A stretch of 52,301 nucleotides of DNA, taken from assembly GCA_017995195.1 (NCBI GenBank), contig JAGOJI010000003.1:1-52301 (forward strand). Direction: 5' to 3'. The notes below the pieces were generated by a model. It did not search any database and was not told the DNA's origin. It worked only from the letters and a program-made list of their open reading frames with translations. Source of the stretch: Cloacibacterium sp. (lineage in GTDB: Bacteria; Bacteroidota; Bacteroidia; Flavobacteriales; Weeksellaceae). A program made the position numbers and the translations under genes. This document shows, piece by piece, positions 2,370 through 36,009 of the stretch (position 1 is the stretch's first letter; every line of letters begins with the position of its first letter).

Positions 2370-4475
2370 TTAAAACAAATCTTCATCTACCAAATTCGGC
2401 AATGTCACTTTCAAGTTCGGTTCAGCTTCCATCGCTCGTTTTATGGCGAAAATGGCTCCTTCGTTTCTTGCCCAACTTCTGCGGGAAATTCCATTGTTCA
2501 CGTCCCAAAAAAGCATAGATTTTAGCCTTCGGTCGGCATCTTCAGAACCGTCCAACAACATTCCGAAACCGCCGTTAATCACTTCTCCCCAACCAACGCC
2601 GCCTCCATTGTGAATACTCACCCAAGTCGCACCACGGAAACTGTCGCCAATTACATTGTGAATCGCCATATCTGCGGTAAAACGGCTTCCGTCATAGATA
2701 TTAGACGTTTCTCGGTACGGCGAATCTGTTCCCGAAACATCGTGATGGTCACGACCCAAAACCACCGCACCAATTGCTCCATTTTTGATGGCTTTGTTGA
2801 AGGCTTCTGCAATTTTCATTCGTCCTTCTGCATCGGCGTAGAGAATTCTCGCTTGCGAACCGACCACCAAATTATTTTGCTGTGCCCCTTTAATCCAAGT
2901 GATGTTATCCTGCATTTGTTGCTGAATTTCCTGCGGAGAATTTTTCATGATTTCCTCTAAAACTTCACACGCTATGTCATCAGTTTTTTGTAAATCTTCA
3001 GGTTTTCCGGAAGTACAAACCCAACGGAACGGTCCAAAACCATAATCAAAACACATCGGCCCCATAATATCCTGAACGTAACTTGGGTATCTAAACTCTC
3101 TTCCCAAAGTTGGATTTTCCGCCATTACATCGGCTCCTGCTCTACTGGCTTCCAACAAAAATGCGTTTCCGTAATCAAAGAAATAGGTTCCTTTTGCAGT
3201 ATGTTTGTTGATGGCAGAAGCGTGTCTTCTCAAACTTTCTTGAACTTTTTCTTTGAATAATTCAGGGTTTTCCGCCATCATTTTGTTAGACTCCTCAAAC
3301 GAAATTCCGACAGGATAATAACCTCCTGCCCAAGGATTGTGCAGCGATGTTTGGTCGGAACCAATATCAATTTTCAAATTTTCTTCATCAAATTTTTCCC
3401 AGACTTCCACCACATTTCCGAGGTATGCGAGAGAAACTGTTTCATTATTTTCTTGTGCTTTTCGCACTCTGGAAACCAATTCGTCTAAATTGTCGTGAAT
3501 TTCATCAATCCATTTTTGTTCGTGACGAATTTTGGTAATTTTCGGATTCACTTCGGCACAAACTGTGATGCAACCTGCAATATTCCCTGCCTTTGGTTGT
3601 GCTCCCGACATTCCTCCTAAACCTGAAGTGACAAACAAGCCTTTCCTCTCCCCAACCCTCTCCGAAGGAGAGGGAGTTGTGTGTGTTCCAATTTCTACGG
3701 AAATATTTTGCTGTTTTTCAGGAACGTATGAAGCCCTTTCTCCTTCGGAGAGAGGGTTTGGGAGAGAGGATTGTAGTTTTATTTTCCTAAAAGCATTCAG
3801 AACCGTAATCGTTGTTCCGTGTACAATTCCTTGCGGACCGATGTACATATAACTTCCCGCCGTCATTTGTCCATATTGTGAAACGCCCAAAGCATTGAAT
3901 TTTTCCCAATCATCGGGTTTTGAATAATTGGGAATGACCATTCCATTGGTTACGACCACTCTTGGTGCATCTTTATGACTCGGGAAAAGTCCCATTGGAT
4001 GACCGGAATACATTACCAAAGTTTGTTCGTCTGTCATTTCAGACAAATACTTCATCGTCAAAAGATATTGTGCCCAATTGCTGAAAACCGCACCATTTCC
4101 ACCGTAAGTAATGAGTTCGTGAGGGTGCTGTGCGACTGCATAATCCAAATTATTTTGAATCATCAACATAATCGCTTTTGCCTGCTCCGATTTTCCAGGA
4201 TATTCGGAAATCGGTCTGGCTTTCATCTCATAATCCGGACGAAAACGGTACATATAAATCCTGCCGTATTTTTCTAACTCTTCCCTAAATTCCGGCAAAA
4301 GTTCTGCGTGAAATTTTGGTTCAAAATAACGCAAAGCGTTTTTCAGAGCGAGTTTTTTTTCTTCTTCGTTTAAGATTTCTTTACGTTTCGGAGCATGATT
4401 GATTTGCGGCTCGTATGGTTTTGGTTGTGGAAGTTCCGTAGGAATTCCTTGCTGGATTTGTTGTTGGAAAGTCAT
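2370..4475 (-). CDS. hutU: urocanate hydratase with internal palindromic-element insertion
   Basis: Converts urocanate to imidazolonepropionate, the second step of histidine degradation, in the cytoplasm with tightly bound NAD. Clear family blocks are YGGNGAVFSNWAQY, MYSGHPMGLFPS, MTAGSYMYIGPQGIVHGTT, FVTSGLGGMSGAQPKA, DQTSLHNPWAGGYYP, GPFRWVCTSG (active-site Cys region) and the C-terminal IHNGGGVGWGEVINGG. The protein has 701 residues, longer than usual partly because about 42 residues (about 236-277) are translated from a palindromic repeat at 3645-3769. The insert falls in a loop between VLNA and LFVTSGLGG, keeps the frame and has no stop. It lies about 20 kb from hutI and hutG, and hutH is not in the window. 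Confidence 0.95.
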   Translation of the reverse strand: MTFQQQIQQGIPTELPQPKPYEPQINHAPKRKEILNEEEKKLALKNALRYFEPKFHAELLPEFREELEKYGRIYMYRFRPDYEMKARPISEYPGKSEQAKAIMLMIQNNLDYAVAQHPHELITYGGNGAVFSNWAQYLLTMKYLSEMTDEQTLVMYSGHPMGLFPSHKDAPRVVVTNGMVIPNYSKPDDWEKFNALGVSQYGQMTAGSYMYIGPQGIVHGTTITVLNAFRKIKLQSSLPNPLSEGERASYVPEKQQNISVEIGTHTTPSPSERVGERKGLFVTSGLGGMSGAQPKAGNIAGCITVCAEVNPKITKIRHEQKWIDEIHDNLDELVSRVRKAQENNETVSLAYLGNVVEVWEKFDEENLKIDIGSDQTSLHNPWAGGYYPVGISFEESNKMMAENPELFKEKVQESLRRHASAINKHTAKGTYFFDYGNAFLLEASRAGADVMAENPTLGREFRYPSYVQDIMGPMCFDYGFGPFRWVCTSGKPEDLQKTDDIACEVLEEIMKNSPQEIQQQMQDNITWIKGAQQNNLVVGSQARILYADAEGRMKIAEAFNKAIKNGAIGAVVLGRDHHDVSGTDSPYRETSNIYDGSRFTADMAIHNVIGDSFRGATWVSIHNGGGVGWGEVINGGFGMLLDGSEDADRRLKSMLFWDVNNGISRRSWARNEGAIFAIKRAMEAEPNLKVTLPNLVDEDLF
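3645..3769. repeat. in-frame palindromic repeat inside hutU
   Basis: The left arm (3645-3674) and right arm (3734-3769) are inverted copies of about 30-36 bases. Each holds a smaller palindrome of the type CTCTCCGAAGGAGAG, and they enclose about 59 bases. Translated with hutU it gives NPLSEGER on one side and PSPSERVGER on the other, a sequence unlike the rest of the enzyme. The size, nested palindromes and high GC relative to flanks mark a dispersed element. No convincing target duplication was seen. Confidence 0.85.
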
Positions 4476-5386: not shown

Positions 5387-6901
5387 TTAATGAAAAAAAT
5401 GACGCATTCCCGTCATCATCATCGGGATTTTATGTTCGTTTGCAGCAGCGATGGATTCTTCGTCTTTTACACTTCCTCCGGGTTGAATAATCGCCGTGAT
5501 GCCTTGCTCTGCACAGAAATCCACCACATCACGGAACGGAAAAAACGCATCGGAAGCTAAAACCAAATCGCCCGAGAATTTTTCTTTGGCTCGCTCTATC
5601 GCTTGTTTTGTTGCCCAAATTCTGTTCACTTGTCCGCCGCCAATTCCGAGTGCCTGAACTCCGTTCGTTACCACAATCGCATTGGATTTTACATATTTCA
5701 CCACACGTTGAGAGAATAAAAGGGCTTTCTTTTGTTCTTCGGTCGGCTGAATTTCGGTAACACAGTTGATGTTTTCAGAAAACTGATTATCCGTATTTTG
5801 AACCAACATTCCACCGTCAATTTTTACAAAAGTTTGGGTATCTGAAACCAGATTTTTGATTTTTATAATTCTCAGATTTTTCTTTTTTCTTAAAATTTCT
5901 AAAGCATTTTCATCAAAATCGGTTGCCATGACGATTTCGAGGAAAGTTTTGTTGAGTTCTTCGGCAGTTTCAGCATCAACTTTAAAATTCATACCGATAA
6001 TTCCACCGAAAATAGAAATCGGGTCACATTCAAAGGTTTTTTTGTAGGTTTCCAAAGCGGAAGTTCCAATCGCAACACCACAAGGTGTGGAATGTTTCAC
6101 CGCACAACACGCCATTTCGTTTTTGAACTCATCAACCACTTTCCAGCATAAATCCATATCTCGCAAATTATTGAAAGACAATTCTTTACCTCCCAGAATT
6201 TCAAAATCTTTCATCGCTCCGTTTTCTACGGTAGAAACGTAATACGCAGCGGATTGATGAGGATTTTCGCCATAACGTAAGTCGGAAACTTTTTTGTAGG
6301 AAGCATTCAAATACGTTGGATATTCTTCATTTAACAACATTTTTGAAATTGCAGCATCGTAAGCGGACGTTAAATTGAACACTTTTCCTGCTAATTTTTT
6401 TCGGGTTTCTAAAGTTGAATTTCCGGTTTCTGAAATTTCGTTTTGAATTTTAGAATAATCTTCCACATCGGTAATTACCGTTACCGAATTGAAATTTTTT
6501 GCCGCCGAACGCAACATGGAAGGTCCGCCAATATCGATGAATTCCACTTTTTCATCTAAAGAAATATTGGCATTGGCGTTTTCAAAAAACGGATAAAGAT
6601 TGACAATAACCATGTCTATCAACTCAATTCCGTGCTCCTGAACGGTTTTCATGTGTTCTTCGTTGGAACGAACCGCTAAAAGTCCGCCATGAACTTTTGG
6701 GTGCAAGGTTTTCACACGACCGTCCAACATTTCAGGGAAATTCGTTACCTCATCTATCTGAATCGGGCTTAATCCTGCATCTTTCAAATGTTTGAAGGTT
6801 CCACCCGTGGAAATGAGCTCGTAGTTTTTTGATTCTAAAAATTTTGCAAATTCTATTAATCCGGTTTTGTCGGAAACAGAGATTAATGCACGTTTTTTCA
6901 T
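5387..6901 (-). CDS. purH: bifunctional AICAR formyltransferase / IMP cyclohydrolase
   Basis: Catalyses the last two steps of de novo purine synthesis (AICAR to FAICAR to IMP). The N-terminal MGS-like cyclohydrolase domain (about 1-140) shows [32 protein letters not shown] and NLYPF. The AICAR transformylase domain follows, with [14 protein letters not shown], the catalytic [11 protein letters not shown] and the C-terminal [14 protein letters not shown] and [10 protein letters not shown]. Length 504 is typical. It is the last purine gene in the order purM, purN, DUF559 gene, purH, all on the minus strand. The 155 bases between the DUF559 stop and purH are partly repeat DNA, which may weaken co-transcription. 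Confidence 0.97.
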
Positions 6902-6970
6902 TTTTTTATTTATTAAATCGCCACTTCGTGGCTTGGTTATACTTTCTAAATTAAGGTTTATATTTTCCTA

Positions 6971-7048
6971 CCCCGTCCTGCGGACACCCCGGGGAATTTT
7001 GCGTTCGCATTCCCCTCTTTTTAAAGAGGGGTGCCGAAGGCGGGGTGT
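6971..7048 (-). repeat. left palindromic repeat of the DUF559 cassette
   Basis: Read on the minus strand it starts ACACCCCGCC-TTCGGC, then ACCCCTCTTT-AAAAAGAGGGG, and continues into a second GC-rich half (GGGGTGTCCGCAGGACGGGG). It is the inverted counterpart of the element at 7489-7570. Both lie directly next to the DUF559 gene, whose stop is 9 bases away. The CCCCTC/GAGGGG hairpin is perfect. Confidence 0.8.
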
Positions 7049-7056
7049 TAGACTCG

Positions 7057-7473
7057 TTATGAAAACTTTTCAACAATAAAACTTTCTAACTCCTGCATTA
7101 CGTTTGCTAAATCATTTTTAACCCTGTAATCTGAAATTCGGTAGACAATTAATCCTAAAGATTCTAAAGATTTTTGTCTTTTTTCGTCATATTTATCTTT
7201 CAGTTCATGACTTGTTCCATCAATTTCAATAACTACGCCGAGTGATTTTATATAAAAATCTACAATATAATTGCCGATAATTCTTTGGCGGTCAAAATCA
7301 ATTCCGTGAAATTCATCGTTGCGAACTTGTTTCCAAAAGATAACTTCAGATAAAATATAGCCTTTCCTCAAACTTCTTGCACGCAATAGCAAATCTTTGT
7401 TTTTGGGTAGCACTTCAATTTTCCTTTTGTAGATGATAATTCCATCTATTTGGGTAAGTTCTTTTCTTTCCAT
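7057..7473 (-). CDS. DUF559 family PD-(D/E)XK-like endonuclease
   Basis: 138 residues. The DUF559/Vsr-like fold is recognisable: SEVIFWKQVR (about 42-51), RQRIIGNYIVDF with Asp72, then the EXD-type catalytic pair E83-I-D85 in VVIEIDGTSH, and KYDEKRQKSLESLGL leading into the last strand and YRVKND. All presumed catalytic positions are present, so the enzyme is probably active. Its substrate is not known from sequence. The gene interrupts the purine run between purN and purH and is tightly bracketed by inverted GC-rich repeats (6971-7048 and 7489-7570), suggesting that gene and repeats moved in together. The Lys-rich N-terminus (about 1-30) has no assigned role. Confidence 0.85.
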   Translation of the reverse strand: MERKELTQIDGIIIYKRKIEVLPKNKDLLLRARSLRKGYILSEVIFWKQVRNDEFHGIDFDRQRIIGNYIVDFYIKSLGVVIEIDGTSHELKDKYDEKRQKSLESLGLIVYRISDYRVKNDLANVMQELESFIVEKFS

Positions 7474-7488
7474 TATTTTATATCATTG

Positions 7489-7570
7489 TACACACCCCGC
7501 CCTTCGGGCACCCCTCTTTTTAGAGGGGAAATACACACCCCGTCCTTCTGCAATTTTTTTTAGAGGGGAA
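7489..7570 (+). repeat. right palindromic repeat of the DUF559 cassette
   Basis: It starts ACACCCCGCCCTTCGGGC, then ACCCCTCTTTTTAGAGGGG, followed by a second, degenerate copy (ACACCCCGTCCTTCTGC, then TTTTTTTTAGAGGGG). The first unit matches the left repeat in inverted orientation. The second copy overlaps the end of purN and supplies its last codons and stop (7560-7562). Confidence 0.8.
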
Positions 7571-8129
7571 GCTGTAACACCTTTACAATGGCTTTCGGAA
7601 AAATCTCATATTCTACCTGATGAACTTTTTGTGCTAAAGTTTCCGGCGTATCGTTTTCATCAACATCAAATTTTCCTTGCAGAATGATTTCACCTTCATC
7701 AATTCCTGAGGTTACGAAATGTACCGTTGCTCCACTTTCCTTCTCTTTTGCTTCAATTACGGCTTCGTGAACGTGGTGTCCCCACATTCCTTTCCCTCCG
7801 AATTTCGGCAATAATGCCGGGTGTATATTGATGATTTTACTTTTGTATTTCTCACAAAAATCTTTATTTAAAATGGAAAGGAAACCTGCCAAAACAATTA
7901 AATCGGTATTCTCCGGCAATAATTTTTCTAAATTTTCAGAAAAGTCTTTTCCTCTTTTGATGAGTTGATTCGGGATTTGATGATTTTCGGCTCTTTGCAA
8001 AGCGTAGCAATCTCGGTCTGCAACGACAAGATTAATTTTTGCATTGGGGATTTCTCCGCTTTCAATACAATCGATGATGCGTTGCAAATTGCTACCGGAA
8101 CCTGAAACTAAAATGGCTATGTTTTTCAT
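7560..8129 (-). CDS. purN: phosphoribosylglycinamide formyltransferase (GAR transformylase)
   Basis: Transfers a formyl group from 10-formyl-THF to GAR in purine synthesis. 189 residues from ATG 8129, where MKNIAILVSGSGSNLQ is the normal N-terminus; the frame stays open upstream only through repeat DNA, so a longer start is unlikely. Motifs: SGSGSNLQRI phosphate loop, LAGFLSIL, catalytic INIHPALLPKFGG, and GATVHFVTSGIDEG with the catalytic Asp. The C-terminus QLPL-stop is read from the palindromic repeat at 7489-7570, so the repeat has replaced the native 3' end by a few codons. It follows purM, with an 80-base gap full of 7-base repeats. Confidence 0.95.
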   Translation of the reverse strand: MKNIAILVSGSGSNLQRIIDCIESGEIPNAKINLVVADRDCYALQRAENHQIPNQLIKRGKDFSENLEKLLPENTDLIVLAGFLSILNKDFCEKYKSKIINIHPALLPKFGGKGMWGHHVHEAVIEAKEKESGATVHFVTSGIDEGEIILQGKFDVDENDTPETLAQKVHQVEYEIFPKAIVKVLQLPL

Positions 8130-8132
8130 TTT

Positions 8133-8217
8133 GTACAATGTACAACGTACAAAGTACAATGTATTTTCTCCACCATACTTTGTACTTTGTACTTTTTACA
8201 TTTTACATTTTACAATA
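8133..8217. repeat. degenerate heptamer repeats forming a hairpin between purM and purN
   Basis: At 8133-8163 the unit GTACAAN repeats four times with exact 7-base spacing. At 8176-8217 TACTTTG, TACTTTG, TACTTTT, TACATTT, TACATTT, TACAATA follow, also at exact 7-base spacing. The two halves are largely complementary (GTACAAAGTACAATGTA against TACTTTGTACTTTGTAC, one mismatch) around a 12-base loop. The last copies run into the 3' end of purM. Confidence 0.85.
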
Positions 8218-9196
8218 AGATAATTTTCTCTTCGTTTTCTACGATTTCCCCTACTAAATACGCATCTTCAATTAACGAAAGTGCTTTATCTGCAAGGCTT
8301 TCATCTACTACTACAACCATTCCAACGCCCATATTGAATGTTCCGAACATTTCCATTCGGTCTATATTTCCACGTTTTTCGCATTCCAGCATTACGGTTG
8401 GAATTTTGATTTTGGAAGTATCAATTTTCGCACATAAGCCATTGGGAATAACTCTCGGCACATTTTCCACCAAACCACCTCCTGTAATATGGGCAATTCC
8501 ACTGATTTCCATAGCATTCATCAGTTTTTTAATATCCTGATAATACAATCTCGTGGGAACTAAAAGCGTTTCGTGAATGGGTTTTCCTTCAAACTCTTCG
8601 TTGAAATCAGGAAAAACTTTTCTCACCAAAGAAAATCCGTTGCTGTGAAATCCTGAACTCGGCAAAGCGATGATTTTATCTCCTTTTTTAATTTTAGAGC
8701 CATCAATAATTTGGTCTTTTTCTACAATTCCTACGCAGAAACCCGCCACATCGTAATCTCCGGGTTGATACATTCCGGGCATTTCTGCGGTTTCGCCGCC
8801 AATCAAGGCACATTCGTTGTCTTTGCAGGCTTTTACCATTCCGAGAACAATTTCTGCGGCAACATTGGCATCTAACTTTCCGCAAGCCAAATAATCAAGA
8901 AAAAATAATGGTTTTGCACCGTGACAAACAATATCGTTTGCACACATCGCAAAGCAATCTATCCCGATAGAATCGTATTTTTTGGTATCCAAGGCAACTT
9001 TTAGTTTGGTTCCCACACCATCGGTTCCGCTCACCAAAACCGGATTTTTGTAACCTCCTATTTCGTAAAAAGCCCCGAAACTTCCGAGATTGTTCAACAC
9101 GTTTTTATTGTGCGTTTCTGCAACGGCAGATTTTATTTTGTCAACGGTTTTGTAGCCCTCTTCTTTGTCTACTCCGGCGGATTTGTAGGTATTCAT
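8210..9196 (-). CDS. purM: phosphoribosylformylglycinamidine cyclo-ligase (AIR synthetase)
   Basis: Makes AIR from FGAM with ATP in purine synthesis. 328 residues. YKSAGVDKEEGYKTVDKI is the N-terminal signature, VSGTDGVGTKLKVAL the ATP-binding loop, GIDCFAMCANDIVCHGAKPLFFLDY the core, GGETAEMPGMY the Mg/ATP motif, and SSGFHSNGFSLVR and HITGGGLVENVPR the C-terminal domain. All key blocks are intact. First gene of purM-purN-(DUF559)-purH. Its 5' region holds AACCTT repeats and then a strong terminator with an upstream promoter and tiny ORF (9280-9448), so expression could depend on readthrough of that terminator. Confidence 0.97.
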   Translation of the reverse strand: MNTYKSAGVDKEEGYKTVDKIKSAVAETHNKNVLNNLGSFGAFYEIGGYKNPVLVSGTDGVGTKLKVALDTKKYDSIGIDCFAMCANDIVCHGAKPLFFLDYLACGKLDANVAAEIVLGMVKACKDNECALIGGETAEMPGMYQPGDYDVAGFCVGIVEKDQIIDGSKIKKGDKIIALPSSGFHSNGFSLVRKVFPDFNEEFEGKPIHETLLVPTRLYYQDIKKLMNAMEISGIAHITGGGLVENVPRVIPNGLCAKIDTSKIKIPTVMLECEKRGNIDRMEMFGTFNMGVGMVVVVDESLADKALSLIEDAYLVGEIVENEEKIILL

Positions 9197-34290: not shown

Positions 34291-36009
34291 TTAGAACATG
34301 AAATATAATTGTCCCATTGCAACCACATCGATAGGGTCACAAGTACATTTCTTACCGTCAACTTTAACCTCGTGAGTTTGAGCGTTAACTTCGATTTTCG
34401 GCATTTCGTGGTTATGAACCATGTCTGCTTTACCGATATCTCTACAACCTTTAACCGGTAATAATTTTTTACCAAGTCCGTAACCTTGTACAATTCCTTT
34501 TTCCAAAGAAATTTGAGATACGAAGAATGCAGAAGTTTCAGTGTTCGCTTTACCGAAGTTACCGAACATTGGCTGCCATCTTACTGGCTGAGGAGTTGGG
34601 ATAGAAGCGTTAGCATCACCCATTTTAGACCAAGAAACGAAACCACCTTTGATGATCATTTCAGGCTTAGCACCAAACATATCTGGTCTCCACATTACCA
34701 AGTCAGCCATTTTACCAACTTCGATAGATCCGATATAGCTACCAATACCGTGAGCAATTGCAGGGTTGATACCAACTTTAGCAATATATCTCTTGATTCT
34801 GTAGTTATCGTTATCGTTTCCTTTATCTTCTGGTAACGGTCCGAATTGTTTTTTCATTTTGTCAGCAGTTTGGAAAGTTCTTGTTAAAACTTCCCCAATT
34901 CTACCCATTGCTTGAGAGTCAGAAGACATGATAGAGAATACACCCATATCGTGTAAGATATCTTCAGCTGCAATAGTTTCTCTACGGATACGAGAGTCAG
35001 CGAAAGAAACGTCTTCTTTTACGTTTTTATCTAAGTGGTGACATACCATCAACATATCTAAGTGCTCATCAGCAGTGTTTACTGTATAAGGCTTAGTTGG
35101 GTTAGTTGAACCTGGTAATACGTTTGGATATCCCGCAACAGTAATAATGTCTGGAGCGTGACCACCACCAGCACCTTCAGTGTGGAATGTGTGGATAGTT
35201 CTACCGTTGATAGCTCTCATAGTATCTTCTACGAAACCTGCTTCGTTCAAAGTATCTGTGTGGATAGTAGCTTGTACATCTAACTTGTCGCAAACTGTTA
35301 AACAAGTATCGATAGCAGAAGGAGTAGTACCCCAGTCTTCGTGTAATTTAAGACCTAAAGCACCTGCTTCAATTTGCTCGATAAGAGCGTTTTCAGAAGA
35401 AGAGTTACCTTTACCGAATAAACCGAAGTTTAGAGGCATACCATCTAAAGATTCGAACATTTTTTGTAGGTTGAAAGCACCCGGAGTAATTGTAGTAGCC
35501 AAAGTACCGTGGTTAGGACCTGTACCACCACCAATCATTGTAGTTGTACCACCAGCCAATGCAGTTTCGCACTGTTGTGGACAAATGAAGTGGATGTGCG
35601 TATCGATAGCTCCCGGAGTAAAGATAGAACCTTCACCACCTAAAGCCTCAGTAGAAGCACCAATTACCATTCCTGAAGTTACACCTTCCATTGTGTTAGG
35701 GTTACCTGCTTTACCAATACCACAGATTTTACCGTCTTTGATACCGATGTCTGCTTTTACGATTCCCCAGTAGTCAATGATAGTAGCGTTAGTAATAACC
35801 ATATCAAGAACTCCTTCTTCTCTTAGGTGAGTAGCAGACTGAGCCATACCGTCTCTTAAAGTCTTACCACCACCAAATTTATTTTCTTCTCCGTAAACAG
35901 TGAAGTCTCTTTCGATTTCAGCAAACAATTCACTGTCAGCTAATCTGATTTTGTCACCCACTGTTGGGCCATACATTGATGCGTATTTTTGTCTATCTAT
36001 TTTAGCCAT
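34291..36009 (-). CDS. ureC: urease subunit alpha (catalytic)
   Basis: 572 residues, standard length. Nickel ligands and catalytic residues are all present: [11 protein letters not shown] (HxH), GLKLHEDWG with the carbamylated Lys (near 220), [13 protein letters not shown] and [14 protein letters not shown] (His pairs), the flap MVCHHLD (Cys and His), and [12 protein letters not shown] (Asp). It hydrolyses urea to ammonia and carbamate. In an operon with ureA and ureB just upstream. Terminator follows. Confidence 0.99.

Follow-up and report, generated by a model that had tools for sequence, protein, structure and literature searches.

REPs are among the commonest repeats in bacterial genomes, and to our knowledge RAYTs are the sole enzyme class that has so far been tied to them. 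For one group, the CGTC-tagged REPs, no dedicated transposase was reported (Di Nocera et al. 2013; PMC3733652). Among proteins related to the one studied here, YcjD has been stated to have a Vsr-like relation (PMC1189080), and VsrA of Caulobacter, likewise a protein with a DUF559 domain, is required for the DNA damage response when a cytosine methyltransferase is absent (PMC12907096). No published description of a pairing between DUF559 and a palindrome, repeat or transposase was found among the open-access papers searched. The window analysed here, a stretch of 52,301 nucleotides from a draft Cloacibacterium sp. assembly (2.33 Mb, 182 contigs), contains a DUF559 gene between two facing palindromic units, with the following features at the locus:

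5387–6901, minus strand: purH, the downstream host gene (PF01808, E=1e-112)
6970–6997, minus strand: degenerate outward partner unit ACCCCGTCCTGCGGACACCCCGGGGAAT, forming a REPIN-like doublet with 7009–7048, as judged from the fold
7009–7048, plus strand: 3'-side inward-facing palindromic unit ATTCCCCTCTTTTTAAAGAGGGGTGCCGAAGGCGGGGTGT, 40 bases, from sequence and fold
7057–7473, minus strand: predicted R-type DUF559 nuclease gene, intact, 138 aa (PF04480, E=9.5e-27)
7490–7532, minus strand: 5'-side inward-facing palindromic unit ACACACCCCGCCCTTCGGGCACCCCTCTTTTTAGAGGGGAAAT, from sequence, an exact core-pattern match and fold
7533–7570, minus strand: second, degenerate tandem unit (direct repeats D3 and D5), at the end of the purN ORF
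7560–8129, minus strand: purN, the host gene, with the insertion at its 3' end (PF00551, E=7e-44)

An earlier note on this DNA had described an intact PD-(D/E)XK-like gene within the purine operon, with related repeats in opposite orientation close by, one of which supplies the end of purN, and this description was borne out: the operon assignment is correct, the ORF is full-length, and the last PurN codons with the stop (..QLPL*) are provided by the third, degenerate unit at 7533–7570. The unit at 7009–7048 ends 8 bases from the DUF559 stop codon and that at 7490–7532 begins 16 bases from the start codon; the two are mutually inverted (inverted repeat I3), with CGGGGTGT ends towards the gene and TTCCCC ends outward. 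Within the 3'-side unit, an outer hairpin (CCTCTTT..AAAGAGG) and a short inner hairpin (GCCGAAGGC) are followed by CGGGGTGT towards the gene. Both units fold strongly compared with shuffled sequences, the 6966–7050 doublet at −26.7 kcal/mol (z=−5.5) and the 5'-side unit at z=−3.9. The core pattern CCCCTC..GAGGGG was matched six times in the window against 0.26 expected, a number reached in 0 of 100 shuffles, with five of the six matches representing the two units themselves (overlapping or on both strands). No Rfam family was found to cover the window repeats.

Other repeats were observed in the vicinity. A second inverted repeat (TGTACAATGTACAACGTACAAAGTACAATGTA ...) is located between purM and purN (8123–8223), and stretches like TACAATGTA occur upstream of purN in related genomes. 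The window hutU (2370–4475) is approximately 40 aa longer than that of relatives (701 vs 662 aa), its extra stretch at 3643–3770 containing a different palindrome (CCTCTCCCCAACCCTCTCCGAAGGAGAGGG ... CTCCTTCGGAGAGAGGGTTTGGGAGAGAGG) as a doublet read in frame. Furthermore, an unexpected Rfam match to 5_ureB_sRNA (RF02514, 90 bits), possibly a coding-sequence match, was obtained at 35562–35859 on the plus strand.

The window protein scored 93.5 bits against PF04480, for which the curated cut-off is 20.6, and the Pfam scan returned no match to the Y1 domain (PF01797, HuH/Y1 tyrosine transposase). It displays the active-site pattern E..D..ExD..H (E43, D72, E83, D85 and H89); in the R-family alignment, E43, R62, Q63, D72 and E83 are invariant, D85 and H89 nearly so, and W47 is conserved. 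The AlphaFold (AF2) model (pLDDT 90.7) best matched the DUF559 protein NGO0050 of Neisseria (3HRL, E=1e-6), followed by the homing endonuclease I-Bth0305I (1e-4), with Vsr ranking lower. According to this model, the protein is a predicted nuclease with a Vsr/EDxHD-like PD-(D/E)XK fold. The median dN/dS in the R family was 0.10, and the protein is therefore under purifying selection.

To determine how far the gene and the repeat belong together, 197 genomes of the window organism's family, containing 60 small R-type DUF559 loci, were surveyed. The R motif was present within 300 bases of 57 of the 60 genes; within 150 bases, the repeat occurred on both sides of 43 and on at least one side of 54, compared with 0 and (on one side) 6 of 537 control genes in the same stretches. 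Conversely, all eight close inward-facing pairs of R-repeats (<1.5 kb) found in 15 genomes, among the 149 copies listed, were shown to enclose a DUF559 gene, against 0.15 pairs expected by chance, and no other gene was found inside these eight pairs. The repeat was also present in the same orientation at all 11 loci retrieved in a GTDB scan, which encode proteins 51–77% identical to the window protein; the exception in spacing was Kaistella palustris, where the 5' unit lies approximately 200 bases away, beside purN. The pairing of gene and repeat is thus established, and the observation made in the window is confirmed and generalises far beyond it. Chance proximity in a repeat-rich genome was rejected, as R-repeats are few per genome (median copy number 5.5) and neighbouring genes are without them. 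The window genome itself carries only about four solo relatives of its repeat and a single stand-alone DUF559 gene (7057–7473), its one other DUF559 match being located within a 1257-aa open frame. Large DUF559 fusion proteins were considered as members of the same system and rejected, since they exhibited no genome-level association with the R-repeat in an early tally.

The repeat type was found to follow the nuclease clade. A second, more distant DUF559 clade, designated H-type, is flanked by another palindrome, CCCTTTAGGGNNGGGG: the H motif was present at 11 of 12 H loci and at none of the 60 R loci, and the R motif at none of the 12 H loci. The association that the earlier note had proposed to examine therefore extends to both clades, each with its own repeat. 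Across the 197 genomes, the R-repeat was present in 68 of 70 genomes with an R-gene versus 41 of 127 without (OR 71, p=4e-21), and the H-repeat in 15 of 16 genomes with an H-gene versus 30 of 181 without (OR 75, p=4e-10), the cross-pairs (R-gene with H-repeat, H-gene with R-repeat) being null. When stratified by genus (Mantel–Haenszel), both associations were retained (R pair, OR 38, p=1e-8; H pair, OR 24, p=1.5e-5), again with null cross terms. H-repeats are often arranged as REPIN-like doublets approximately 50 bases apart, and an array was observed beside one H-gene. The presence of R-repeats in 41 of 127 genomes without an R-gene indicates that repeats persist, or arise, in the absence of the gene.

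Read along one strand, the R-unit has the form ACCACCC-CGTC-(stem-loop)-CCA-CCCCTCC..GGAGGGG-AAT, of which the window units represent a compact variant whose inner hairpin is short. The CGTC tag was identified in 69 and the CCA tail in 55 of 77 parsed arms. The inner stems are variable, with a median longest perfect stem of 6 bp, and the 77 arms include 26 distinct stems of at least 6 bp. Wherever both arms of a locus carry a stem of 5 bp or longer (15 loci), the two stems differ. The inner hairpin is conserved as a structure and not as a sequence.

The locations of the R-type genes follow clades, so that transposition of the gene must be rare. Of the 60 genes (L054–L113), 37 are located beside hutU, either 5' in the same direction, 5' and divergent, or on the 3' side; the GTDB loci occupy the purN–purH gap in Kaistella and Chryseobacterium and a position beside an hsdS-like gene end in Polaribacter, and Ghiorsea, a member of another phylum, harbours a DUF559 gene of the same clade at yet another site. 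The purN–purH gap is empty in most relatives, including the closest ones by PurN (89–90% identity), which answers the earlier note's call for empty sites: the gene is not always there. Neither of the two outcomes that the note had named as refuting its proposal was thus obtained, as DUF559 genes elsewhere do have such repeats (57/60 R-type genes, and 11/12 H-type genes with their own repeat). Filled sites are scattered on the PurN tree, implying at least seven changes (weakly supported), and their DUF559 genes form one clade (support 96/95). Genomes G117 and G154, which sit among filled lineages in that tree (modest support), lack a DUF559 gene and have the outer ends of both units fused in the purN–purH gap; judging from the sequence, these fused ends are read as probable deletion footprints. 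A solo unit directly behind purN may be present or absent within one genus. In four genomes, the entire unit–DUF559–unit arrangement is read in frame inside a restriction gene, namely hsdR (L240 and L241, between the HSDR_N and SWI2/SNF2 ATPase domains), hsdS (L041) and a Type ISP gene (L042). No clear signal of a target-site duplication was obtained, the AATT ends being palindromic. The suggestion that the cassette "moves or is kept" therefore survives in its second half, as being kept fits better; frequent jumping does not agree with sites that follow clades.

Two local arrangements were also recorded. In Polaribacter (L049, ~2900–3550), the DUF559 gene lies between near-identical copies of the hsdS-like end plus unit doublet, and its first codons recur after the copied segment, representing a partial tandem duplication. 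In two other genomes (L234 and L236; G097 and G042), solo R-units, all oriented alike, are found within extended intergenic arrays made up of tandem copies of a different repeat (agccagctttgaaaacagaag...).

The clade-specific pairing is most economically explained by a RAYT/REP-like partnership in which the enzyme is an unrelated nuclease, and we consider it likely that the DUF559 nuclease and its own palindromic units form such a two-part system, the units being copied by repair or replication. It would comprise a single-copy gene, one inward-facing unit on each side and further units scattered in the genome. The nuclease would recognise its own unit in cruciform or hairpin form and cut or nick there, after which host repair or replication would copy the unit into another gap, in most cases directly after a gene; occasionally, the whole unit–gene–unit cassette would be copied likewise. 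The observations comprise the pairing, solo units dispersed in the genomes, sites with and without the gene, footprints, an intact and conserved active site and purifying selection; to these, this account adds that the nuclease may act on its own repeat and so drive dispersal through a copy-by-repair step.

RAYTs themselves might have mobilised the repeats, with DUF559 as a passenger, seeing that Y1_Tnp genes, present in 143 of the 197 genomes, tend weakly to be found together with the repeats (OR 6–11). Passive carriage of this kind was rejected, and we give it hardly any credence: none of 20 RAYT genes in the same genomes (L292–L311) has an R- or H-repeat within approximately 400 bases, most carrying inverted palindromes of their own (GGAACGGGCTTTAGCCCGTT, AGCTCCGTAGGAGCGA, AGTCGCGGAGCGAC), whose recovery also serves as a positive control; R-repeats, at up to 17 copies, are retained in all six genomes that have an R-gene but no Y1 gene; and DUF559 alone rides between the close inward pairs of the 15 genomes. 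That the RAYTs carry other repeats also supports the earlier note's comparison with RAYT/REP logic executed by a different enzyme. It is very improbable that the protein serves in defence or as an orphan restriction nuclease, the hairpins beside its gene being mere transcription terminators, an interpretation consistent with a weak PADLOC match to mREase_II (E=4e-4) and with the insertions in restriction-modification genes, since terminators would not be specific to a nuclease clade, of the same type on both sides and distributed genome-wide with the gene, and such pairs were absent from the 537 neighbouring ORFs.

A homing-type selfish gene, whose nuclease cuts empty targets (for example, the 3' end of purN) and is copied into them by repair, the palindromes serving as passive ends, terminators or recombination handles, would be in keeping with the second-best fold match (I-Bth0305I), with the in-frame invasion of restriction genes and with insertion at the same site in lineages whose PurN genes do not group, although PurN tree support is weak. 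We nevertheless regard it as unlikely, as many unrelated sites are used and the dispersed gene-free solo units specifically follow the gene clade, a behaviour not expected of passive ends. Alternatively, the nuclease might repair or resolve the hairpins of a repeat that is spread by other means, with gene and repeat being retained together. The Vsr-like relation of YcjD (PMC1189080), the DNA damage phenotype of Caulobacter VsrA in cells lacking the cytosine methyltransferase (PMC12907096) and a conserved, mostly vertically inherited single-copy gene are compatible with such a maintenance role, which we judge to be distinctly unlikely, because it leaves unexplained both the placement of the gene exactly between two inward-facing units and its occurrence at numerous locations and in a second phylum. 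The clade-specific pairing points to an enzyme, hitherto undescribed, by which short DNA palindromes are spread or maintained.

This nuclease–palindrome pairing was also sought outside the family. Across the Bacteroidota, 24 of 39 DUF559 loci exceeded the control 99th percentile for flanking inversion, the remaining 15 of 39 showing no excess, and a GC-rich hairpin was located near 37 of 40 loci versus 36 of 142 control genes. Eighteen DUF559 loci from other phyla were sampled through plasmid and chromid records (Pseudomonadota, Cyanobacteriota and Deinococcota); at most of these, one or both flanks contain a C-run/G-run hairpin accompanied by a second G-run. The repeat that lies behind ycjD in E. 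coli (L259) was found in 5353 of 5426 genomes, with a median of 18 places in each. Neisseria dRS3 gained no support as a DUF559 partner, as the flanking palindrome at the locus examined is a different one. DUF559/Vsr-like nucleases could, at chances falling somewhat short of even, constitute a second enzyme class, independent of RAYTs and found throughout bacteria, by which extragenic palindromic repeats are created, spread and maintained; these would include at least part of the orphan CGTC-tagged REPs, and each clade would be matched to its hairpin.

A candidate partner enzyme, of a fold unrelated to RAYTs, can now be named for the CGTC-tagged REPs. The specificity pattern is directly testable. 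The data also suggest a role for a domain whose function is still labelled unknown, and they may account for the in-frame entry of small palindromes into genes, several restriction genes in the present case. With ycjD beside its 18-copy repeat, E. coli offers a laboratory model.

Compared with known systems, the R-repeat appears to match the CGTC-tagged REPs in part. The tag before the stem (CGTC, or TGTC/CCTC) is shared, and the R inner hairpin reads CGTC-stem-loop-stem-CCA. Of the CCA tail and the AT-initial stem of 8–9 bp that mark the CGTC-tagged REPs, the tail was seen in 55 of the 77 R arms, and R stems are variable with a median longest perfect stem of 6 bp. The outer C-run/G-run hairpin is an addition of the R-unit. 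YcjD and NGO0050 belong to the same Pfam family as the window protein, and E. coli ycjD likewise abuts a dispersed repeat, but the repeat sequence differs, and a link to a repeat was not found in the open-access papers searched. Vsr and I-Bth0305I (EDxHD) have their fold and active-site layout in common with the window protein; unlike Vsr/EDxHD homing endonucleases, the DUF559 gene is located outside any intron or intein and is accompanied by a dispersed palindrome family. Rickettsial palindromic elements are similar in that palindromic units are read in frame inside proteins, but the inserts described here carry a nuclease domain between the units. The likeness to RAYT/TnpA_REP with REP/REPIN extends to mostly one vertically inherited gene per genome, the enzyme's own dispersed palindrome in inverted orientation on the two sides of the gene (R-type, 43/60 vs 0/537), repeats that are dispersed and richer in genomes with the gene, a specific repeat type for each enzyme clade (the R/H double dissociation) and, on the H-type side, doublets. 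The difference lies in the enzyme, which is here a PD-(D/E)XK (Vsr/EDxHD-like) protein of PF04480 and not a HuH/Y1 tyrosine transposase of PF01797.
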